A stretch of 64,000 nt of DNA, from NCBI GenBank assembly GCA_024642605.1, contig JAHEAT010000004.1:17150-81149 (forward strand), given 5' to 3'. Position numbers and translations under genes: made by a program. The notes below the pieces were generated by a model, which searched no databases, was not told where the DNA came from, and worked only from the letters and a program-made list of their open reading frames with translations. The DNA is from Microbacteriaceae bacterium. Lineage in GTDB: Bacteria > Actinomycetota > Actinomycetes > Actinomycetales > Microbacteriaceae. Shown here piece after piece: positions 9,577 to 46,350 of the stretch; the first letter of the stretch is position 1; every line of letters begins with the position of its first letter.

Positions 9577-9936
9577 ATGACCGTCACTTGGGCCTTCATC
9601 GATGAGCTAGCCAGCCAATTCACTTCTTGCAAGGTTGTGCCTGGCGAGCGCCGTGAGTGGTGCGTGAAAGGCAAAGCTGTTGCTTGGGAGAGGCCGCTGA
9701 GCAAACGCGACCTGGCCGCCTTGGGGGCAGGGGCTCCGGCTGGTCGAGTGCTTGCGGTGCACGTTGAAGACTTGGATGTTAGAGAGGCTTGGTTGCAGGC
9801 GCATCCGAGTGTTTGTTTTGTAAGCCAGCACTTTGCCAACTACCCGGCGGTGTTGGTAGACCTCGAACTCGCCGATGAGAGCCTGGTTCGCGAGCTGTTT
9901 GCCGAGACTGCTGCTTGGCTCGAAGCCACACGCTAG
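9577..9936 (+). CDS. MmcQ/YjbR family protein
   Basis: Small cytoplasmic protein (119 aa) with the MmcQ/YjbR (DUF661) pattern: a WERPLSKRDL segment after a short beta region, LAVHVEDLDVREAWL, then a HFANYPAVLVDL core strand and an acidic C-terminal helix. Family members have a DNA-binding-like double-wing fold, but their role is unproven. No clear ribosome-binding site precedes the ATG, and the start lies 22 bases from the divergent CoA-transferase start, so the message may be leaderless. Its stop codon overlaps the end of the convergent LysE-type gene by 4 bases. Confidence 0.75.
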   Translation: MTVTWAFIDELASQFTSCKVVPGERREWCVKGKAVAWERPLSKRDLAALGAGAPAGRVLAVHVEDLDVREAWLQAHPSVCFVSQHFANYPAVLVDLELADESLVRELFAETAAWLEATR

Positions 9937-10541
9937 CGAAGCGCAATTACCGCGGCGATAATCACAAAAACCAATGACATTGCACGGTTTAGCACGATGC
10001 GGTTGGCAGCTTTACTGAGCCAGCTGCCAAGCACACTGGCTAGCGACATGTAAAACAGCGTGATCAGCGCAAAACCTACGATCACGATTATCCACAGAAT
10101 GACAAGATCACCAAAGGTGTTTAAGCCCTGAGCCACCACCATTGGCACAATCGACGAATAGAAGAGCAGCGGCTGTGGGTTGCTAATGCCAACCAGGTAA
10201 CCGCCGAGCACAGACGTGGCGCGACCGGAGGTTTTGGCAGGTTGGGCTAGCTGTGCATCGGTGGGTTTTGCCAGCCAAAGACGCGCGGCTGTGAATAACA
10301 AGAAACCTGCGCCGAAAATCTTGAGAATCACAAAAAGCTGAGGGTTAGTGGCGAGCAGTGCCCCGATGCCAAAGAAGGCCAGCGAGATCATCGTGGTTTT
10401 CGCGAGGGCGATGCCAAGCGCATATTGCAGCGCCGAGGCTCGACCGCCAACGATGGTGCGGCTCACGATGAGCATGGTGTCGGCGCCCGGTGCACCTGCG
10501 GCCAGCAGGTAGGCGACGGTGAAAAAAGCGTATGCGTGCAC
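9933..10541 (-). CDS. LysE/RhtB family amino-acid exporter
   Basis: Membrane exporter (202 aa, GTG start) with the N-terminal family pattern LLAAGAPGADTMLIVSRTIVGG in place of the usual SPGPD-type loop, five to six hydrophobic helices, and the mid-protein GYLVGISNPQPLLFYSSIVP (the NPK/NP-type loop). RhtB/LysE proteins export threonine, homoserine, leucine or other amino acids; the substrate here is unknown. Its start codon is only 14 bases from that of the divergent MFS gene. A second, distinct LysE-superfamily gene lies at 14334-14939. Confidence 0.87.
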   Translation of the reverse strand: MHAYAFFTVAYLLAAGAPGADTMLIVSRTIVGGRASALQYALGIALAKTTMISLAFFGIGALLATNPQLFVILKIFGAGFLLFTAARLWLAKPTDAQLAQPAKTSGRATSVLGGYLVGISNPQPLLFYSSIVPMVVAQGLNTFGDLVILWIIVIVGFALITLFYMSLASVLGSWLSKAANRIVLNRAMSLVFVIIAAVIALR

Positions 10542-22059: not shown

Positions 22060-22563
22060 CTACCCGTAGGTGTCTCTCGGGCCGCGACCGGGCACCGATC
22101 TCGGGCCTTTTTTCCACGACGGCGCGGTGGGTCCGAGCATCTTTAGAGAGGTGATATTCAGCTCGGCAAATTCGGCGTTTAAGCGTTCCAAGATAATGTC
22201 GCCCATTAGGCGCAACTGTGTAGCCCACACAGTCGATTTGCATCGAACAGTCAGAGTTCCATCAACTAAATCTTCGGGCATCGAGTTTGCCGCGGTGTCG
22301 GCTCCAACGATTTCAGCCCACTTCACATGCAGTTCGGCCTCGGCCATTTCGCCAGTCCAGCGAAACGCGCCTACGAGGTCATCCACCGATGAAATCGCCG
22401 AAACCGGGTCGCGACCGCGATCGAAAGGTTTTGATTTGGCTTTGGATGCTTTGGCTTCGATGCGTTTTTGGTCGCGGCTCATGCGCTTACCGGTGGCCGC
22501 CTCGCGCATTGTGTAGTAAAACTCTTGAGCAAAGTCGCGTTTCGGTGTCTTTGGGTCGCTCAT
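22060..22563 (-). CDS. dciA: DciA-like DUF721 protein (replicative helicase operator)
   Basis: Protein of 167 aa with a basic N-terminal region and a C-terminal DUF721/KH-like domain: VGAFRWTGEMAEAELHVKWAEIVG, then LTVRCKSTVWATQLRLMGDIIL and the tail KMLGPTAPSWKKGP. DciA is the widespread bacterial partner that delivers DnaB helicase in organisms without DnaC/DnaI. Its gene is conserved between recF and gyrB in actinobacteria. The start overlaps the recF stop by 4 bases. Since dnaB is at 44992, both halves of the predicted loader system are in the window. Confidence 0.88.
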   Translation of the reverse strand: MSDPKTPKRDFAQEFYYTMREAATGKRMSRDQKRIEAKASKAKSKPFDRGRDPVSAISSVDDLVGAFRWTGEMAEAELHVKWAEIVGADTAANSMPEDLVDGTLTVRCKSTVWATQLRLMGDIILERLNAEFAELNITSLKMLGPTAPSWKKGPRSVPGRGPRDTYG

Positions 22564-24717: not shown

Positions 24718-25860
24718 TTAGCGGTTAAGCAGGTTTGGTTGAAGCAGGTAGCGGTAGGTGTCACTGTCGGTCTTTTCTTTAGAACCGTGGCTAGTGATTA
24801 GTACCGGGCCTGGCTTGTTTGGGTCGTTGTTTGATGTGAAGGCAACCTTCACGAACTCACTGTGAACACCAGAGATACCTTCGAGAAGGAACTGCGGCTT
24901 TAGTGAGACAACGATCTCTTTACCTGTGAGCTCAGCACTGATGCTCTCGGATGCCTGAGCGGTTTCGTTTCCGCTTGCGTCAAGCGTCACCGAATCCTCT
25001 TTGAAATCGAACTTGATTGGGGCTTCGCGCTCGAGAACCAGGCCGACACGTCGAGTTGAGTCAACTAGATCGGCGGTGTTGATGATTGCGAAGTTTGGAA
25101 CATCAGCAGGGAAAAGCGACTTCACCGGTGGGAAGGTGCCCTTCATGAGGATGGTGGTTACCGAGCGGTTGTTGGCAGAGAAGCCGATGATCTCTTTGTC
25201 GCCCTCGGCGCTTAGGCCAATCTGAATTTCACCCTGGTGGCTAAAGTTTTTGGCAACTTCACTAAGGATGCGCGAAGGAACCAGCGATGTGTTTCCTACC
25301 GAAGCTGCGGTTGGCTTCCAAGAAACTTCGCGCATGGCCACGCGGTAGCGGTCGGTGGCTAGCAGGGTTAGAGCCTTTTCGCCAGCTTCGATGAGCACAC
25401 CGTTTAGTTGAGGGGTGACGTCTTCTTTTGAAACGGCCGGCAGAACCTGAGCAACAGCCTGCTGAAAGTCTTCGCCAGCTACCGAACCGGCAACCATTGG
25501 CATTTCTGGAAGTGGCGGGTAAGTTTCGATTGGCATAGTGGCCAGGTTGAACTTGGCGGCGCCACACTTAACCTCAACCTTGTTGGCTTCTAGGTTTACT
25601 TCGACTGGTGCATTTGGCAGCTTGTTGGCGATGTCGTTGAGTAGACGGCCAGAAACCAAAACGCGACCAGGTGTGTCAACCTTGGCGACGATCTCAACCT
25701 GAGCCGAAACCTCGTAGTCGAAAACCGAGAGTCGAAGTGCATTGGCGTCGGCCTCAACCAGGATGCCGGTGAGAATCAACATTGGTGCTCGCTGCGGAAG
25801 CAGACGACTTACGAAAGATACTGCTTCGCTCAGAGCGTCGCGGTTTACTTGAAACTTCAC
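24718..25860 (-). CDS. dnaN: DNA polymerase III sliding clamp (beta subunit)
   Basis: Beta clamp (380 aa), homodimeric ring that tethers DNA polymerase III. The first domain begins MKFQVNRDALSEAVSFVSRLLPQR; the middle carries TDRYRVAMREVSW, part of the partner-binding pocket, and the C-terminus ends in PNLLNR, a variant of the usual PMR/PVR end. Length is normal. It is separated from dnaA by the 348-base presumptive origin and reads away from it. Confidence 0.98.
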   Translation of the reverse strand: MKFQVNRDALSEAVSFVSRLLPQRAPMLILTGILVEADANALRLSVFDYEVSAQVEIVAKVDTPGRVLVSGRLLNDIANKLPNAPVEVNLEANKVEVKCGAAKFNLATMPIETYPPLPEMPMVAGSVAGEDFQQAVAQVLPAVSKEDVTPQLNGVLIEAGEKALTLLATDRYRVAMREVSWKPTAASVGNTSLVPSRILSEVAKNFSHQGEIQIGLSAEGDKEIIGFSANNRSVTTILMKGTFPPVKSLFPADVPNFAIINTADLVDSTRRVGLVLEREAPIKFDFKEDSVTLDASGNETAQASESISAELTGKEIVVSLKPQFLLEGISGVHSEFVKVAFTSNNDPNKPGPVLITSHGSKEKTDSDTYRYLLQPNLLNR

Positions 25861-26208
25861 GTGTCACCAGTCTTTGGTTGGGTAGTTGAAGATTTAACTT
25901 CCTAGGGGTCAATCCTGCCACAAATTCGAGCTGGGTATAGGGCTCGCATAAATCGTTATGGGTCAGGTTCAATTTCTCTTTAAATCTAATTTTCTTATTA
26001 ACGCTTGTGGAAATTGTGAATAACCACGTTCGAGGCATTGGTTAACTGGAAACTACAACGGTGAAAGATGTATACACATGTGTGCATAAATCTGTGGATA
26101 ACTAGAGGTCCTGTGAATTCAGAATTGAGTTTTCATTTAAAGTACCCAGTAATTCACTGATATTGGTGGGTTATCAACAGTTATCCACAGTTTTGTGAAC
26201 AGCCAGAT
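25861..26208. other. dnaA-dnaN intergenic region, candidate oriC core
   Basis: A 348-base non-coding gap with two perfect DnaA boxes, TGTGGATAA at 26093-26101 and TTATCCACA at 26181-26189, and one-mismatch boxes at 26015-26023, 26081-26089 and 26171-26179. Box pairs 26081/26093 and 26171/26181 are spaced 12 and 10 bases. The dnaN-proximal part (about 25950-26003) is A+T-rich with TTTAAATC and TTTTCTTATTAA, a candidate unwinding element. Actinobacterial origins characteristically lie between dnaA and dnaN. The call rests on box content and synteny; GC skew was not computed. Confidence 0.75.
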
Positions 26209-27654
26209 TTAGAACGAACGGTGGTCGTTTCTAACTTTGGTCATGATTTCGGTGACCTGGTTATAGATGTAGCGACGATCCTTCATCCACTCGGCAACCT
26301 TTCGGTTGGCATACATAACTGTGGTGTGGTCGCGGTTACCGAATAGCTGACCTATCTTTGGCAGCGATAGGTTCGTGAGCTCGCGGCAAATGTACATTGC
26401 AATCTGGCGGGCCATTGCAATGGCGGCTGTTCGTGAGTTGCCGTAAATCTCGTCGGGAGTGATCTTGTAATAGGTGCTCACTGCGTTGATGATTTCGATT
26501 GGCGCGATTACGGTGTCTTGGGCCGCCGGAGCGACATCCTTGAGAACTGTCTGTGTGAGCGCAAGGTCAACCTGCTTACGGCTCAGGTTTGCGTAGGCGA
26601 TAACACGGATGAGTGTGCCTTCAAGCTCGCGCACGTTCGACTGAACGCGCTCAGCAATGAACTCAAGGCACTCGTCTGGAACCTTCTTTTTCTCGAGTTC
26701 GGCCTTCTTGCGAAGAATGGCGATGCGGGTTTCGAGCTCTGGAGCCTGGATGTCTACGCGCAAACCCCACTCAAAGCGAGAAAGCATGCGTTCTTCGAAG
26801 CCTTTGAGGTCTTTTGGCGCTACATCCGAGGTGATTACCACCTGTTTGTTGGCGTCATGAAGTGCGTTGAAGGTGTGAAAGAAAGCCTCTTGGGTTTGGT
26901 CTTTGCCAGATAGAAACTGGATGTCGTCGATCAGCAGCACGTCGATGTCGCGGTATTCACTGAGAAACGCAGCCGAGCGGTTGTTCTGAATGGCGTTGAT
27001 GAAGTCGTTGGTGAACTCTTCGCTCGAAACGTAGCGAACCTTGAACCTGGGATACAGGCTCAGCGCGTAGTGCCCGATGGCGTGAAGCAAGTGAGTCTTA
27101 CCTAGGCCGGAGTTGCCGTAGATGAAAAGTGGGTTGTAGGCCTTGGCCGGGCTCTCGGCAACGGCGAATGCGGCCGCACGGGCGAAGATGTTTGTCGAAC
27201 CCATAACGAAGTTCTCGAATGTGTACTTATGGTTGAGCTTCGATTCGAAGTTTGCCGAGTTTCTCGATGGCGCGAAGCCCGAATCTGCTTGGATGGCCGG
27301 CAGCGAAGAACCGATCTCGTCTTCGGTGTTGGCTGCGGTTGAGGTTGCTACGACGGTGGGCGTATAGCTGTTGCCGATGCTCGAATTCACCACGATTGCG
27401 AAAGAGTTCACGAAACCAGCGTCTGCCTGGTTGGCAACCGATGTGATTGCGTCGTTGACCATGTCTTTCATTCGCTGTTCAAACATCGATCGAGTTAGGT
27501 CGTTTGGAACCTCAAGGTAGAGGGTGCTGCCGATCACACCTTTGACCACTGCCAGCTGGGCGAAGCCCATCATGGATGCGGCAACGCGCTGGTCTTTCTC
27601 CAGGTGCGACAGAGCGCTCTGCCAAAGATTGGCTTCAACGCTGGTGTCTGGCAT
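26209..27654 (-). CDS. dnaA: Chromosomal replication initiator DnaA
   Basis: AAA+ initiator (481 aa). N-terminal domain I spans about 1-90, a short linker about 90-140, the ATPase domain has Walker A GNSGLGKTH (180-188), Walker B VLLIDDIQFLSG and the arginine-finger/sensor region, and C-terminal domain IV carries LFGNRDHTTVMYANRKV, the helix-turn-helix signature that reads TTATCCACA boxes. The linker is much shorter than in Streptomyces. DnaA boxes lie on both sides of the gene, including its own upstream region. Confidence 0.98.
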   Translation of the reverse strand: MPDTSVEANLWQSALSHLEKDQRVAASMMGFAQLAVVKGVIGSTLYLEVPNDLTRSMFEQRMKDMVNDAITSVANQADAGFVNSFAIVVNSSIGNSYTPTVVATSTAANTEDEIGSSLPAIQADSGFAPSRNSANFESKLNHKYTFENFVMGSTNIFARAAAFAVAESPAKAYNPLFIYGNSGLGKTHLLHAIGHYALSLYPRFKVRYVSSEEFTNDFINAIQNNRSAAFLSEYRDIDVLLIDDIQFLSGKDQTQEAFFHTFNALHDANKQVVITSDVAPKDLKGFEERMLSRFEWGLRVDIQAPELETRIAILRKKAELEKKKVPDECLEFIAERVQSNVRELEGTLIRVIAYANLSRKQVDLALTQTVLKDVAPAAQDTVIAPIEIINAVSTYYKITPDEIYGNSRTAAIAMARQIAMYICRELTNLSLPKIGQLFGNRDHTTVMYANRKVAEWMKDRRYIYNQVTEIMTKVRNDHRSF

Positions 27655-27678: not shown

Positions 27679-27739
27679 TTCTCCACAATACTAGGCGAAT
27701 GTGGAGAGTGTGTGGATAACTTTTTTGGCCTGTGAATAA
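27679..27739. promoter_or_regulatory. DnaA boxes in the dnaA upstream region
   Basis: Within the 436-base dnaA-rpmH gap there is a perfect box TGTGGATAA (27711-27719) and one-mismatch boxes TTCTCCACA (27679-27687) and TGTGAATAA (27731-27739); a two-mismatch TGTGGAGAG lies at 27700. They begin only 25 bases upstream of the dnaA ATG, so they could serve autoregulation of dnaA or form a second origin subregion. The rest of the gap is A+T-rich without other recognisable elements until the rpmH promoter. Confidence 0.7.
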
Positions 27740-27960
27740 CTGATTCTTCGCACAAAAAATCTGTATCAAGACATTCAAGTGAATTGGTTCGGCAAATTGC
27801 AAATTGTGTCGGTGTGTCACGGCAACTTTTTTGGTAACGACTTGCCGGTGTTTGCCGACCGCGGCTCGCATTTTGAGTCGAAGGATAGTTTGCTCGGTTT
27901 ACTGCCGGGTAATCGGTCGAGCGCAGAATTCATTGACTTTTAGTTTTCTCAAATAAAAAC

Positions 27961-34882: not shown

Positions 34883-35854
34883 TTAGCCGCGGCCACGAAG
34901 AGCGGCTTCGGCCAAGCTCAAGTAAACCTGGCCGAGCGAGTGCCCTTCGGCCAAAATGGCCTGAGGTAGCAGCGAAGTTTCAGTTAGACCCGGCAAAACG
35001 TTGGCTTCCAAGAACCAGGCCACACCCTTGGCATCAACAATCATGTCGATGCGAGACAGGTGACGAAGGCCCAAAAGTTCGTGAACCAAGATTGCCATCT
35101 TGCCAGCACGTTCGGCGACGGTTTTTTTGAGTCTTGCCGGCACGAAATATTCGGTTTCGCCAGCGGTGTAACGCTCCTGGTAGCCAAAGTTTCCGCTCGA
35201 AGGAACAACTTCAACGGCCGGCAGCGCAAGTGGGCCTGCGCCGAGGTCGATAACACTGATTGCCAGTTCGGTACCTTCGACAAAACGCTCGATGATGGCT
35301 ACATCGCAGTAAACATAGGCATCGATCATCGCCCGCGAGAGGTCTTCGGCTTTACGAACGATGGTTACACCGTGGGCAGATCCGCTTCGGGCGGGTTTAA
35401 CGACCAGCGGCAGTGCTAGCGAAGCGGTTACCGCAGCCAAAACACCATCGGCGTCGAGCTCTTTGAAGGTGTCTTTCGGCAGGGTGATCGACGCTGGAGT
35501 CTGAACGCCGGCCTTGCTCACCAAAACCTTGGCGATCGACTTATCCCAGGCCAGGCGCGATGCAGGGCCAGAAGCTCCAACGAATGGCACGCCAGTAACT
35601 GCAAGGATGTCGCGAAGCGCACCATCCTCGCCAGAAGCACCGTGCAGAGTCGGCCAGATGACGTCGGGCTTATCTTTTTTGATGTTGGCAAGAAGTTCTT
35701 GGTCGGGTTCACGCAAAATCACGGTTGCGCCAGCCTCGGTGAGGGCATCGGCCACGCGGCGGCCCGACTTTAGCGAGATTTCACGTTCGTGAGAGATACC
35801 GCCAGCCAAAACCTGAATGGTTAGGCCCTTATGCGCCTTGTTCTTTGGAATCAC
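34883..35854 (-). CDS. ddl: D-alanine--D-alanine ligase family ATP-grasp enzyme
   Basis: ATP-grasp ligase (323 aa). The N-domain begins IQVLAGGISHEREISLKSG, whose serine-containing SHEREISL loop is typical of Ddl. The ATP site is LPLVVKPARSGSAHGVTIV; the metal-binding end reads IDMIVDAKGVAWFLEANVLPGLTETSLLPQ, where E-x-N and the SL-x-P loop match Ddl. It probably makes D-Ala-D-Ala for peptidoglycan. Because many actinobacteria carry a second, canonical ddl elsewhere, a related amide-forming ligase cannot be excluded. The start overlaps the upstream aminotransferase stop by 4 bases, so the two form an operon. Confidence 0.82.
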   Translation of the reverse strand: MIPKNKAHKGLTIQVLAGGISHEREISLKSGRRVADALTEAGATVILREPDQELLANIKKDKPDVIWPTLHGASGEDGALRDILAVTGVPFVGASGPASRLAWDKSIAKVLVSKAGVQTPASITLPKDTFKELDADGVLAAVTASLALPLVVKPARSGSAHGVTIVRKAEDLSRAMIDAYVYCDVAIIERFVEGTELAISVIDLGAGPLALPAVEVVPSSGNFGYQERYTAGETEYFVPARLKKTVAERAGKMAILVHELLGLRHLSRIDMIVDAKGVAWFLEANVLPGLTETSLLPQAILAEGHSLGQVYLSLAEAALRGRG

Positions 35855-37110
35855 TTGTTGCCCTCTCGATTGAAGGTTTCTAGAAGCTCAGTCTGCAGAT
35901 TGATAACCGTAGCCAAACGCTTGATGCCTAGGTTGATGTTCTCAGGAGTCGGGAACGAATAGCAAATTCGCAACTTGTTTTGCCCCGTGCCATCGCCGTA
36001 GAAAGCGGTGCCAGGCGTATATGCCACGAGTTCTTTGACGGCGAGCGGCAGCATCGCTTTCGAGTCGATACCCTCGGGAAGAGTTATCCACAGGTAGAAC
36101 CCGCCATCTGGCTGGGTTGTGGATAACTTCGGCAGGTATTCGGCCATGGCGTCGAGCGCTGCATCCCTGCGTTGCTTGTAGACACCGCGGAAAGTGTCGA
36201 TCTGACCCTGCCAGTCTGCACTCGAAAGGTATTCGCTAATCATCGACTGGCTAAACATCGACGGGCACAAAATGGCCGACTCTTGAGCCAGCACCAATTT
36301 TTCACGGATGGCGGGCGGCGCCAAGACATAGCCGACTCTGAAGCCTGGCGCCAAAATCTTGGAGAACGAGCCCAGGTAAATGACGTTGTCGTCGAGGGTG
36401 CGAAGCGCGTCGGGCACCTTTTTATCGAAATAGAGCAAACCGTAGGGATTATCTTCGAGAATCAAGATGCCGTTTCGGCGGCACAGCTCAACAATCTTGG
36501 CACGACGGCGCTCGGCGAGGGTTACGCCAGATGGGTTGGCGAAGTTAGGCACCAAATACAAGAACTTAATGCGACGACCCTCAGCCTTTAGGCGCGCGAT
36601 TGTTGCCTTAAGAGCCTCTGGTTGCAAGCCATCGTTGTCGGTTTCGACGTGCTCGATGTGCGCCTCGTAGTGACGGAAGATACCGATGGCACCAACGTAA
36701 GAAGGCCCCTCGGCCAAAACCACGTCACCCTTGTCGAGAAACAGCCCCGAAACCAGGTCGAGTCCGTGCTGCGAACCGGTGGTCATTACGATGTCTTCAA
36801 CCGAAGATTTGACGCCCTCGAGAGCCATGAGCTCACGAACCTGGTCGCGAAGCTTTAGATCGCCCTGTCCGCCAGAGTATTGAATGGCGAGATCGCCGCG
36901 AGTGGTCATTACCTGCTCGTAGGCCTGGTGCAGCAGCTCTTTTGGCAGGGCGTGCACGTAAGGCATTCCGCCGGCGAGAGAAACAACCTCTGGGCGGCTG
37001 ACCACCGCAAAGAGCGCGCGAACTTCAGAAACCGAGAGCGAGTGCGCTCGTGAAGCATAGGAATCCAACCAGATGTCGAAGTTGGTGCCCTTGTTGCTCG
37101 TATTCGTCAT
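35851..37110 (-). CDS. PLP-dependent aminotransferase (fold type I, LysN/MocR-like catalytic domain)
   Basis: Class I/II aminotransferase (419 aa) without the GntR N-terminal domain of MocR regulators. Visible are the cofactor region MTTGSQHGLDLVSGLFLDKGD, PNFANPSGVTL, the ILEDNPYGLLYF Asp-x2-Tyr motif, the PLP Lys in YLGSFSKILAPGFRVGYV, and the C-terminal KLRICYSFP Arg. Closest functional labels would be 2-aminoadipate or aromatic/branched-chain aminotransferase; the substrate is not determined. It is translationally coupled to the Ddl-like ligase. Two perfect inverted DnaA boxes lie inside its coding sequence at 36084-36126. Confidence 0.86.
   Translation of the reverse strand: MTNTSNKGTNFDIWLDSYASRAHSLSVSEVRALFAVVSRPEVVSLAGGMPYVHALPKELLHQAYEQVMTTRGDLAIQYSGGQGDLKLRDQVRELMALEGVKSSVEDIVMTTGSQHGLDLVSGLFLDKGDVVLAEGPSYVGAIGIFRHYEAHIEHVETDNDGLQPEALKATIARLKAEGRRIKFLYLVPNFANPSGVTLAERRRAKIVELCRRNGILILEDNPYGLLYFDKKVPDALRTLDDNVIYLGSFSKILAPGFRVGYVLAPPAIREKLVLAQESAILCPSMFSQSMISEYLSSADWQGQIDTFRGVYKQRRDAALDAMAEYLPKLSTTQPDGGFYLWITLPEGIDSKAMLPLAVKELVAYTPGTAFYGDGTGQNKLRICYSFPTPENINLGIKRLATVINLQTELLETFNREGNK
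36084..36126. promoter_or_regulatory. Inverted pair of perfect DnaA boxes inside the aminotransferase gene
   Basis: TTATCCACA at 36084-36092 and TGTGGATAA at 36118-36126 face each other 34 bases apart. They are encoded in the minus-strand codons for YLWITL and KLSTTQ. Perfect 9-mers; no non-coding DNA here. Confidence 0.55.
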
Positions 37111-43786: not shown

Positions 43787-44056
43787 ATGGCTGGAAAAGT
43801 CAACAGCGACCGCGCAGGCAAGAAGCCTATGCGCAAGGGCAAGCTAGACAAGCTTGGCCCGGTCAAGGCAATAAAGGTTGGTGTTATCGATTACAAAGAC
43901 ATCGCCACCCTCAAGAAATTCATCTCGGACCGCGGCAAGATCCGCGCCCGTCGCATCACCGGTGTTTCGGTTCAGGAACAGCGTCTAATCGCCCGCGCAG
44001 TCAAGAATGCCCGTGAAATGGCCCTGTTGCCATACGCCGGTGCAGGCAGAAACTAA
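43787..44056 (+). CDS. rpsR: 30S ribosomal protein S18
   Basis: Basic ribosomal protein (89 aa) that forms a heterodimer with S6. The core has [51 protein letters not shown], the S18 signature. No CxxC zinc motif is present. GGAG stands before the ATG. rplI follows after 13 bases. Confidence 0.97.
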
Positions 44057-44069
44057 GGAGCAGCCAAGA

Positions 44070-44522
44070 ATGTCGAAGCTAATTCTTACTAACGAGGTCA
44101 CTGGCCTCGGTTCTGCTGGTGACGTCGTTGAGGTTAAAGACGGCTACGCACGCAACTTCCTGATTCCTAACGGTTTCGCAGTTATCTGGAGCCAGGGTGG
44201 CGAGAAGCAGATCGCACAGATCCGCGCAGCTCGCGACGCTCGTGCTCTTGCATCCGTTGAAGAGGCAGTAACCCTCAAGGCACGTCTCGAAGAGAAGCCA
44301 ATCGTTCTTGCCGTCAAGGCTGGCGTTGCTGGCCGTCTATTCGGCGCCGTCAAGACCGCAGATGTAGTTGCAGCAGTTGTTGCAGCAGGCATCAGCGAGC
44401 TAGACAAGCGTAAGGTCGAGATCACCTCGCCTATTCGCTCAACCGGTAACCACGAGGCAACCGTTCGTCTTCACGGCGATGTAGTTGCCAACATCACCCT
44501 TCAGGTGGTCGCAAAGAAGTAA
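44070..44522 (+). CDS. rplI: 50S ribosomal protein L9
   Basis: L9 (150 aa from the ATG at 44070, preceded by AAGGAG). The N-terminal RNA-binding domain is [35 protein letters not shown]; a connecting helix and the C-terminal domain ([15 protein letters not shown]) follow. The frame is open upstream into rpsR, but the internal ATG is the family start. Last gene of the operon, followed directly by a terminator. Confidence 0.97.
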
Positions 44523-44538
44523 GCGGTTTTCCGCTTTA

Positions 44539-44574
44539 GGTGGCAAGTCTTCGGGCTTGCCGCCTTTTCTTTTA
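44539..44574 (+). terminator. Rho-independent terminator after rplI
   Basis: A 9-bp stem, GGTGGCAAG (44539-44547) with CTTGCCGCC (44556-44564), one G-U, 8-base loop, then TTTTCTTTT. It ends the rpsF operon, so dnaB needs its own promoter. Confidence 0.9.
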
Positions 44575-44674
44575 CCCGGATGCGGATGCGCATGTTTTCG
44601 GCCCCGAAGTGCCTAGCGACCAGTTCGACCGGGCTGGTATTCACTCGAATCAGGCAGAAAGCGCTCTAGAAGCC

Positions 44675-44887
44675 TGTGGATAACTTGTGGAGAACCAGTC
44701 TTCGGCGTGTCGTTTTTTGGAATTGTCCACAACCCTAAGGTTCTTGTTTAGGGTTTGTTAAGATTACTTATCCACAAGCAAAATTCGTTGTATTTACAGG
44801 GATGTAGGCATAAAAACCATCGAAATCCCACAGGGTTCTCCACAAGTTACCCACAGAGACAACGGCGTGTTGCGGGGGTTATCCACA
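44675..44887. promoter_or_regulatory. DnaA-box cluster upstream of dnaB
   Basis: Seven sites in 213 bases of the 469-base rplI-dnaB gap. Three are perfect: 44675-44683 (reverse), 44768-44776 and 44879-44887. Four have one mismatch: 44686-44694 (reverse, TTCTCCACA), 44723-44731 (TTGTCCACA), 44836-44844 (TTCTCCACA) and 44847-44855 (TTACCCACA). Two pairs (44675/44686 and 44836/44847) are spaced exactly 11 bases, one helical turn. This is denser in perfect boxes than the dnaA-dnaN gap. About 44575-44674 shows nothing recognisable. Confidence 0.8.
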
Positions 44888-44911
44888 AGTCCACTCACAG
44901 CGGTGTTTTTC

Positions 44912-44940
44912 TTTACGGTGTCAGTGGTAAATGCTAGACA
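44912..44940 (+). promoter_or_regulatory. Candidate dnaB promoter
   Basis: TTTACG at 44912-44917 and TAGACA at 44935-44940 with 17 bases between. The nearest DnaA box ends 24 bases upstream of the -35 element, so DnaA bound to the cluster would sit next to RNA polymerase. Consensus-based guess. Confidence 0.45.
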
Positions 44941-44991
44941 TCTCTAAGAAGTCTCAAACGACCTCGAAGACCCTATATTTACGGAGCAAAC

Positions 44992-46350
44992 ATGGCCCAG
45001 GCGCAAACCACCGGCAACGTTTCAAACGAACGCGTGCTCCCGAACGACCTAATGGCCGAGCAATCAGTGCTGGGTGGCATGTTGCTATCTCAAGAAGCTT
45101 GCGCCGAAGTGTTCGAGCTCATCGCCGGCTCCGACTTCTATGCTCCAAAGCACGAGATCATCTTTAACGCGCTCTACGACGTTTACGGTCGCGGCGAACC
45201 AACCGACGTAATCACTATCACTGCAGAGCTCACCCGTCAAGGTGCTTTGGTGCGTATGGGCGGCGCCGATTACCTGCACACCCTCACATCCATCGTTCCA
45301 ACCGCTGCGAACGCGGGCTTCTACGCCAAGATTGTGCAAGAAAAGTCGGTGCTTCGTAAGCTGATTGAGGCCGGCACCCGTATTGCCAGCGCCGGATACG
45401 CTGCCGAAGGTGAAATCGAAGACCTCGTAAACACCGCGCAGGCCGATATATATGCGGTGGGAACATCCGCGCAAAGAGACGAATACGCGTCTCTCAGCAA
45501 GTCGCTTGAAAGCGCAGTCGAAGAAATGGAGATCGCCGAGCAAAAGGGCGACGAAATCACCGGCATTCAAACGGGCATCTACGATCTAGACAACATGACT
45601 CACGGTTTGCACGGGGGCCAGCTAGTTATCGTTGCCGCCCGACCGGGTGTTGGTAAGTCGACCTTTGCACTCGACATCGCCCGCAATGCGGCCATCAATC
45701 ACAAGAAGCCGGCGCTGTTCTTCACTCTTGAGATGAGCCGCAGTGAAATCGCCATGCGTTTACTTTCGGCTGAGAGCGACATCTATTTGCAGTCGATGCG
45801 TAAGGGCAACATGTCGCGCGAAGACTGGAAGAAACTGGCCAATGTTCGCGGCACCATCAGCGATGCCCCGTTGTTCATCGACGACAGCCCAAACCTCACG
45901 CTGGTTGAGATTCGCGCCAAGGCTCGTCGCCTCACTAAGCAGCTCGGCCTCGAACTCATCATCATCGACTACCTGCAGCTGCTTTCGTCTGGCAAAAAGA
46001 CCGAGAGCCGTCAGCAGGAGGTTTCGGAGTTCTCGCGTTCGCTAAAGCTTTTGGCCAAGGAGCTCAATGTTCCGGTGGTTGCGCTCTCTCAGCTGAACCG
46101 TGGTTTGGAGCAGAAGGCCGGCGGCGACAAGACCCCCGAGCTTCACCACCTTCGTGAGTCGGGCTCGCTCGAGCAAGACGCCGACGTAGTTCTGCTGTTG
46201 CACCAGGAGGCGATGGGCCAGAAGGATCACCCACGTGCTGGCGAAGCGGATATCATTGTTGCCAAGCAGCGAAACGGACCAACCGGCAAGGTTCCGGTTC
46301 TGTTTCACGGCCAATACTCCAAATTCGTCAACCTACAGAAGACCACTTGA
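44992..46350 (+). CDS. dnaB: Replicative DNA helicase DnaB
   Basis: Hexameric 5'-3' helicase (452 aa). The N-terminal primase-binding domain (about 18-115) starts LPNDLMAEQSVLGGMLLSQEA. The RecA-like motor has Walker A ARPGVGKST (216-224), LIIIDYLQLLSS, and the DnaB motif LRESGSLEQDADVVLLLHQE near the end. No intein, unlike many actinobacterial dnaB genes. It stands alone behind the DnaA-box cluster and its stop overlaps the start of the following membrane protein gene. Confidence 0.97.
   Translation: MAQAQTTGNVSNERVLPNDLMAEQSVLGGMLLSQEACAEVFELIAGSDFYAPKHEIIFNALYDVYGRGEPTDVITITAELTRQGALVRMGGADYLHTLTSIVPTAANAGFYAKIVQEKSVLRKLIEAGTRIASAGYAAEGEIEDLVNTAQADIYAVGTSAQRDEYASLSKSLESAVEEMEIAEQKGDEITGIQTGIYDLDNMTHGLHGGQLVIVAARPGVGKSTFALDIARNAAINHKKPALFFTLEMSRSEIAMRLLSAESDIYLQSMRKGNMSREDWKKLANVRGTISDAPLFIDDSPNLTLVEIRAKARRLTKQLGLELIIIDYLQLLSSGKKTESRQQEVSEFSRSLKLLAKELNVPVVALSQLNRGLEQKAGGDKTPELHHLRESGSLEQDADVVLLLHQEAMGQKDHPRAGEADIIVAKQRNGPTGKVPVLFHGQYSKFVNLQKTT

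Follow-up and report, generated by a model that had tools for sequence, protein, structure and literature searches.

Why is the gene for the replicative helicase, dnaB, preceded by a dense cluster of DnaA boxes that lies away from the presumptive replication origin? An earlier note on this DNA had offered two answers for this lineage, namely that DnaA may control dnaB transcription or that the cluster may titrate DnaA. We followed up both in the window, that is, the whole 64-kb stretch of DNA analysed, and in related genomes. Our results point, with a probability of about 0.78, to an array that serves the dnaB promoter as a regulatory region responsive to DnaA, through which DnaA most likely raises dnaB transcription. 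We infer the occupancy of the array by DnaA in this organism, the sign of activation, the ATP dependence and the timing within the cell cycle.

Genes around the array

The array and the presumptive origin are framed by the following features.

24718-25860, minus strand: dnaN gene
26015-26189: presumptive oriC boxes in the dnaA-dnaN gap, five, two of them perfect
26209-27654, minus strand: dnaA gene
27679-27739: boxes upstream of dnaA, in the rpmH-dnaA gap, three, one of them perfect
44007-44522, plus strand: rplI, ribosomal protein L9 (PF01281 and PF03948), as the listed open reading frame, with a likely start at 44070
44538-44575, plus strand: terminator-like hairpin with a T-rich tail, 3' of rplI
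44992-46350, plus strand: dnaB, replicative helicase (PF03796 and PF00772)

The earlier calls of dnaB, rplI, dnaA and dnaN were right, as was the placing of the origin some 18 kb from the cluster (about 18.5 kb by our coordinates). The segment from 17.3 to 27.7 kb of the window carries dnaA, dnaN, recF, gyrB, gyrA and the helicase-operator gene dciA, and the segment from 30 to 33.5 kb carries the genes for an R3H-domain (Jag-like) protein, GidB, ParA and ParB. Given the terminator-like hairpin after rplI, dnaB is probably transcribed on its own, separated from rplI transcription. An RNA element in the gap was considered and rejected, as an Rfam search of 44400-45100 returned no match at the gathering threshold. 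The dciA gene (22060-22563) belongs to the recF-gyrB neighbourhood, and Pfam calls DciA the antecedent of DnaC/DnaI; DciA is therefore probably the loader of DnaB in this lineage.

DnaA boxes in the rplI-dnaB gap

Seven DnaA boxes lie in the rplI-dnaB gap (44523-44991); three match TTATCCACA perfectly and the other four differ from it at one position. These are the same seven sites in 213 bases, and the same three perfect ones, that had been described before. They are listed here with the other elements of the array; slots are given relative to the conserved TGTC of the putative promoter.

44675-44683, minus strand: perfect DnaA box, starting a divergent pair at the rplI-side end of the array
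44686-44694, minus strand: DnaA box with one mismatch, 11 bp from the box at 44675 (2-bp gap)
44723-44731, plus strand: DnaA box with one mismatch (TTGTCCACA), in a slot near -195 in relatives
44733-44753, no strand assigned: inverted repeat CCCTAA-N8-TTTAGGG, immediately 3' of the box at 44723, conserved, with one copy in the window
44768-44776, plus strand: perfect DnaA box, slot near -150
44836-44844, plus strand: DnaA box with one mismatch, opening the second 11-bp pair, slot -83
44847-44855, plus strand: DnaA box with one mismatch, closing the second 11-bp pair, slot -72
44879-44887, plus strand: perfect DnaA box, closest to the dnaB promoter, slot -40
44912-44940, plus strand: putative dnaB core promoter, with a weak -35 TTTACG (44912), the conserved TGTC (44919) and a -10-like TAGACA (44935)

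Five of the seven boxes are oriented towards dnaB. Two pairs, 44675/44686 and 44836/44847, have a start-to-start distance of 11 bp, and 24 bases separate the end of the last box (44887) from the start of the weak -35-like hexamer (44912); both figures agree with those given earlier. The window as a whole contains nine perfect boxes, compared with a mean of 0.23 and a maximum of 2 in 100 dinucleotide-preserving shuffles, so that the former estimate of about 0.5 expected per 64 kb was of the right order. At up to one mismatch there are 26 boxes, as against a mean of 6.7 and a maximum of 15 in shuffles. The 213-bp stretch before dnaB holds 7 of these 26 and is the densest cluster in the window; by the same measure, the oriC gap has five and the rpmH-dnaA gap three.

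A loose form of the inverted repeat occurs at 36 of 80 dnaB loci, compared with an expectation of about 0.0009 per 450 bp of single strand elsewhere. It folds weakly as single-stranded DNA (z -2.0; 8 of 200 shuffles equally good), and we therefore regard it as possibly a protein site. The array also encloses an AT-rich stretch at 44747-44796 (50 bp, 28% G+C); only 8 of 12,790 segments of 50 bp sampled in the 64 kb are at or below 28% G+C. This stretch could ease strand opening, or it could belong to the regulatory DNA.

Conservation in relatives and across the class

A Micrococcales MAG (L001) encodes a DnaB identical to the one in the window, and the relatives that follow are labelled, for example, Micrococcales, Microbacteriaceae, Rhodoluna or Aquiluna. 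From these names we take the relatives to be freshwater bacteria, and refer to them as such. Of 214 DnaB relatives from one scan, the best 80 were examined: each carries one or more boxes in the 700 bp before its DnaB match, and in 62 the number is four or more. Relatives, too, have divergent boxes, most of which lie 221-244 bp before the promoter TGTC. The rplI gene was located in 75 of the 80 loci and ends more than 1.6 kb upstream in 17 of them. Since none of these 17 loci lacks a box in the 270 bp next to the dnaB match (L075 has only a single reversed one-mismatch site there), the boxes travel with dnaB and not with rplI.

Conservation extends well beyond these relatives. Of 118 genomes sampled from the class to which a Microbacterium halotolerans genome belongs, 113 gave a match to DnaB and 110 yielded upstream DNA; this DNA was 400 bp or longer in 107, the usable set. 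Boxes were counted between 400 and 30 bp upstream of dnaB as TTATCCACA or TTGTCCACA with one mismatch allowed, and expected counts were computed from first-order Markov sequences. At least one box was present in 102 of the 107 genomes (10.4 expected), at least two in 85 (0.7 expected) and at least three in 60 (0.0 expected), while five genomes had no box in this interval. With TTATCCACA alone, the corresponding numbers were 84, 59 and 25 of 107, where 3.8, 0.0 and 0.0 were expected. The preference in orientation also holds, with 234 boxes pointing towards dnaB and 66 away from it. Lack of conservation in related genomes had been named as an outcome that would refute the proposal; the boxes are instead kept, and the 102 of 107 genomes indicate that the link between DnaA boxes and dnaB is old and under selection in the class. 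The attribution to "this lineage" was too narrow, the range of the boxes being class-wide. Outside the class sample the feature is weaker: 13 of only 24 genomes of the phylum, whose class is not given, have at least one box (1.6 expected), and 6 of the 24 have at least two.

A putative dnaB promoter and the placement of the boxes

In alignments of 34 relatives, the TGTC is nearly invariant and is followed 12 bp later by a TAKACA-like sequence. When 79 loci and the window were scanned for a strict form of this TGTC/-10-like motif, 43 of the 80 sequences had it; the remaining locus sequence, 2.56 Mb when both strands are included, gave four matches. In a broader set it was present in 44 of 190 sequences, nearly all of them freshwater, with only L060 and L150 lying outside that group. 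A generic sigma-70 promoter scan gave no promoter in the rplI-dnaB gap, and the -10 resembles a sigma-70 element only poorly. We therefore took the core promoter of dnaB from conservation, which places it presumably at this motif.

The start of the nearest box lies 28-29 bp upstream of the TGTC in 24 of 44 motif sequences and 38-40 bp upstream in 18; in the remaining two it is at 44 and 107 bp. The distance from the TGTC to the ATG, by comparison, ranges from 48 to 111 bp in 43 motif sequences. In the same 43, plus-strand boxes occupy slots near -28, -39, -72, -83, -94, -105, -150 and -195 from the TGTC, and minus-strand boxes are mostly near -221, -232 and -243. The window fits this scheme with plus-strand boxes at -40, -72, -83, -151 and -196 and minus-strand boxes at -233 and -244. 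Because the nearest box keeps its distance to the TGTC and the TGTC-to-ATG distance varies, the array is positioned with respect to the putative promoter, and neither to the ATG nor to rplI. With TAGACA as the -10 element, the centre of the nearest box would precede the transcription start by about 52 or 64 bp, which would be an activator position directly behind the polymerase.

An 11-bp register

The 11-base spacing first noticed in the window recurs upstream of dnaB in the relatives. Across the 80 loci, boxes of the same orientation are spaced by about 11, 22, 32-33, 44, 55, 66 bp and onwards, and the commonest adjacent spacings are 11 and 12 bp. For 45 distinct arrays from 58 freshwater loci, which are related by descent so that their slot statistics are not independent, the register has a vector strength of 0.81 at 11.1 bp; the best of 1000 random placements reached 0.22. 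Given that the freshwater arrays share descent, the analysis was repeated on the class sample. There, 57 distinct arrays gave a vector strength of 0.64 at 10.8 bp, as against 0.38 for the best of 500 random placements, a less sharp register from statistics that ignore relatedness. In empty slots, the mean match to the box at offsets 12, 43-44, 53 and 55 is above that at most other offsets. This pattern is suggestive of cryptic boxes in these slots but uneven, and our interpretation does not draw on it.

Such spacing has a counterpart in E. coli. According to the available portion of PMC11317965, E. coli DnaA favours pairs of boxes with a gap of 2-3 bp, and one additional base pair abolishes binding. 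A gap of 2-3 bp corresponds to the 11-12 bp start-to-start step of the dnaB array, and both close pairs in the dnaB gap of the window have the gap preferred in E. coli.

A second element common to dnaB and dnaA

The regions upstream of dnaB and dnaA have another short element in common, in addition to DnaA boxes.

44863-44871, plus strand: second element CGGCGTGTT (RACACGCCG on the opposite strand), conserved, between two box slots
44703-44711, plus strand: upstream second copy, CGGCGTGTC, not general in relatives
27810-27818, minus strand: second element in the rpmH-dnaA gap, GACACACCG on the dnaA sense strand

At dnaB, 41 of 43 motif sequences have GGCGTGTY (RACACGCC when read on the opposite strand) with its start 55 or 56 bp before the TGTC, and the looser GGYGTGTY is present in 52 of 58 freshwater dnaB gaps. 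The upstream position of CGGCGTGTC is represented by nine copies, 205-222 bp upstream of the TGTC, among the 43 sequences. For dnaA, the comparison covered the window and 29 relatives, a set of 30 sequences that includes near-identical ones. Within 400 bp upstream of the gene, GACACRCC was found on the dnaA sense strand in 15 of the 30 and on the opposite strand in none. Because an element of the RACACRCCG type lies upstream of both genes, a second regulator common to dnaA and dnaB probably exists; the common element points to a co-regulator of both initiation genes. We also considered a class-wide spread of the element and dropped it: GGCGTGTY occurs in class upstream regions in 8 of 107 on the plus strand and 14 of 107 on the minus strand, where 3.2 are expected (computed for the plus strand), which is above chance but scattered. 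The claim is accordingly kept for the freshwater group.

WhiA is a candidate for the factor at RACACRCCG, and no more than a lead, because its known motif in Streptomyces venezuelae is GACAC, as given in the available part of PMC3781837. Two observations speak against it: in 39 of 52 loci the element at dnaB begins with A, and neither dnaB nor dnaA is mentioned in the main text of PMC3781837.

DnaA and dnaB in other bacteria

An association of DnaA with the dnaB promoter is already known in kind, so that the link is less new than had been implied. As reported in the available portions of PMC7738170, five regions of the M. tuberculosis genome are strongly bound by DnaA in vitro, one of them upstream of dnaB (Rv0057), the homologous regions of M. 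smegmatis are bound in vivo, and a mycobacterial DnaA mutant that binds less upstream of dnaB under-expresses dnaB. The window resembles this case in several respects: the same gene is the target, the phylum is the same, and DnaA sites lie upstream of dnaB. Moreover, oriC, rpmH-dnaA and dnaB make up three of the five M. tuberculosis regions, and the same three places carry the clusters here. The likeness is drawn from the published description rather than from a comparison with the mycobacterial sequence. DnaA binding was measured in mycobacteria and is inferred for the window, whereas for the window the slot register, the promoter anchoring and the second element are described.

More distant systems resemble the array in part. 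The available text of a review (PMC8203912) places predicted DnaA boxes upstream of dnaB in Caulobacter crescentus and counts dnaB in the DnaA regulon; this phylum is distant, and a phased array is not among the features described in that text. In E. coli, going by the same limited view of PMC11317965, double DnaA boxes occur at nrdA, purH, polA and DARS and were needed for binding of DnaA in vivo at the site tested. Among these, nrdA is comparable to dnaB as a replication-supply gene with box pairs separated by 2-3 bp. E. coli differs from the window, in what is available of PMC11317965, in that dnaB is absent from the 16 DnaA-bound regions, and in having one double box per bound region (none for dnaN) as against the ladder of slots seen here.

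The published link between DnaA and the dnaB promoter was thus found for mycobacteria and Caulobacter only. In a literature search with most subscription journals outside its scope, nothing on dnaB promoters in this class was found beyond PMC7738170, nor were the class-wide range, the promoter-anchored slots or the RACACRCCG element common to the dnaB and dnaA promoters. The portion available of a cyanobacterial paper (PMC6478999) uses the dnaB promoter only as a tool, and the terms helicase, dnaC and rplI are absent from the main text of a B. subtilis paper (PMC4447404).

Proposed role and alternatives

We propose that DnaA monomers would occupy the boxes in register on one face of the helix, at about 11 bp per slot, over a region that begins some 28 bp before the core-promoter TGTC and extends back to about 244 bp from it. 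The 2-3 bp gaps between neighbouring boxes would allow cooperative binding, and the nearest DnaA would sit directly upstream of RNA polymerase. Bound DnaA would then increase dnaB transcription, so that the supply of helicase would track active DnaA, and hence the initiation programme. Activation is supported by analogy, as the mycobacterial mutant with weaker binding makes less dnaB (PMC7738170, available portions). The earlier proposal of DnaA control over dnaB transcription therefore gains support from the conservation, the recurring 11-bp spacing and the fixed distance of the boxes to the promoter. Against an activator, the array extends back to about -250 and exceeds most activator sites in length; an array of such length could equally serve repression or titration.

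The array might instead be mainly a sink that titrates DnaA near oriC and delays initiation, with any regulation of dnaB incidental. Its boxes outnumber those of oriC in the window (7 versus 5) and in the relative G001 (8 versus 6), and with oriC 16-19 kb away, as in the window, G001 and G003, the array would be duplicated soon after initiation. Reportedly, a cluster of high-affinity boxes near oriC in Streptomyces coelicolor, D78, is a titration site whose deletion raised initiation; belonging to the same class and similarly near oriC, it would be a parallel. However, a pure sink needs no promoter anchor, and here the distance to the dnaB promoter motif is fixed; the array also remains at dnaB where rplI is distant, and in G003 oriC has the larger number of boxes (5 versus 4). 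Of the two functions first proposed, transcription control is thus favoured over a pure titration site, because the boxes are fixed relative to the putative dnaB promoter. We regard the sink as unlikely, although the regulatory array would additionally hold some DnaA as a side effect.

Only slightly less credit is due to the reverse sign, in which DnaA on the array would repress dnaB, as it does dnaA in E. coli, and release it when oriC draws DnaA away. Autorepression by DnaA is known in several bacteria (PMC8203912, in its available text), and the dnaA promoter regions of the same genomes do carry boxes. Nevertheless, all boxes with at most one mismatch start at least 28 bp upstream of the TGTC of the putative core promoter, and the M. 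tuberculosis mutant with less binding at dnaB makes less dnaB mRNA (PMC7738170, same portions), which makes repression a doubtful reading.

A second or former replication origin, which the several boxes and the AT-rich stretch (50 bp, 28% G+C from 44747) might suggest, we reject as highly improbable. It is the dnaA-dnaN gap that has the usual gene order, a box layout largely conserved in relatives and the lower G+C minimum, at 24% compared with 28% in the dnaB gap. The conserved divergent layout occurs beside dnaA and dnaN, at 25861-26208 and in the homologues, and not in the dnaB gap, where five of seven boxes face dnaB and a promoter motif anchors the array. The G+C skew is weak and noisy in the window, G003 and G001. 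A datA- or DARS-like locus that alters the nucleotide state of DnaA is just as improbable, since the clustering of boxes near oriC would fit it but the promoter anchoring would be left unexplained, and the DnaA-bound regions of E. coli in Table 1 of PMC11317965, which include datA and DARS, do not include dnaB.

Beyond the regulatory array itself, we tentatively suggest that the Actinomycetes dnaB promoter might be a standing sensor of DnaA, a nucleoprotein filament on a promoter-anchored ladder of 11-bp slots rather than single boxes, which would read active DnaA out as helicase supply, and that in freshwater members dnaA and dnaB might be further linked through a second factor binding RACACRCCG, with a WhiA-type protein as candidate. 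To our knowledge, the matching of helicase supply to initiation has been little studied. The promoter-anchored slots offer a clean test bed, as any single slot could be scrambled or moved by half a turn of the helix.

Box clusters elsewhere in the genomes

Among six genomes of relatives, G001 and G002 have their largest number of perfect boxes at the dnaB array (6 of 34 and 5 of 24); in G003 to G006 the array is not outstanding, with one or two perfect boxes among 12 to 26. When clusters were defined as boxes with at most one mismatch and neighbours no more than 120 bp apart, those with at least three boxes were found solely at oriC, rpmH-dnaA and dnaB, both in 283 kb of G003 and in 400 kb around the origin of G001, and likewise in the window.

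Two further sites in the window lie inside genes. Two perfect DnaA boxes form an inverted pair at 36084-36126, 34 bp apart, within an aminotransferase gene (open reading frame 35851-37110, minus strand). Every base of both boxes is kept in L044 and L002, while identical codons in all three sequences make up only 114 of 330 comparable ones. The protein of L044 and L002 reads LSTT..LWIT at this place; this reading and either box are absent from all 26 other covering orthologues, after two repeats (of L044 and L018) and one sequence that does not cover the place were left out. The pair looks like a lineage-specific DnaA site inside coding sequence. A lone perfect box at 10088-10096 lies in the open reading frame of a LysE-type transporter (9933-10541, minus strand), with a one-mismatch box 202 bp away.
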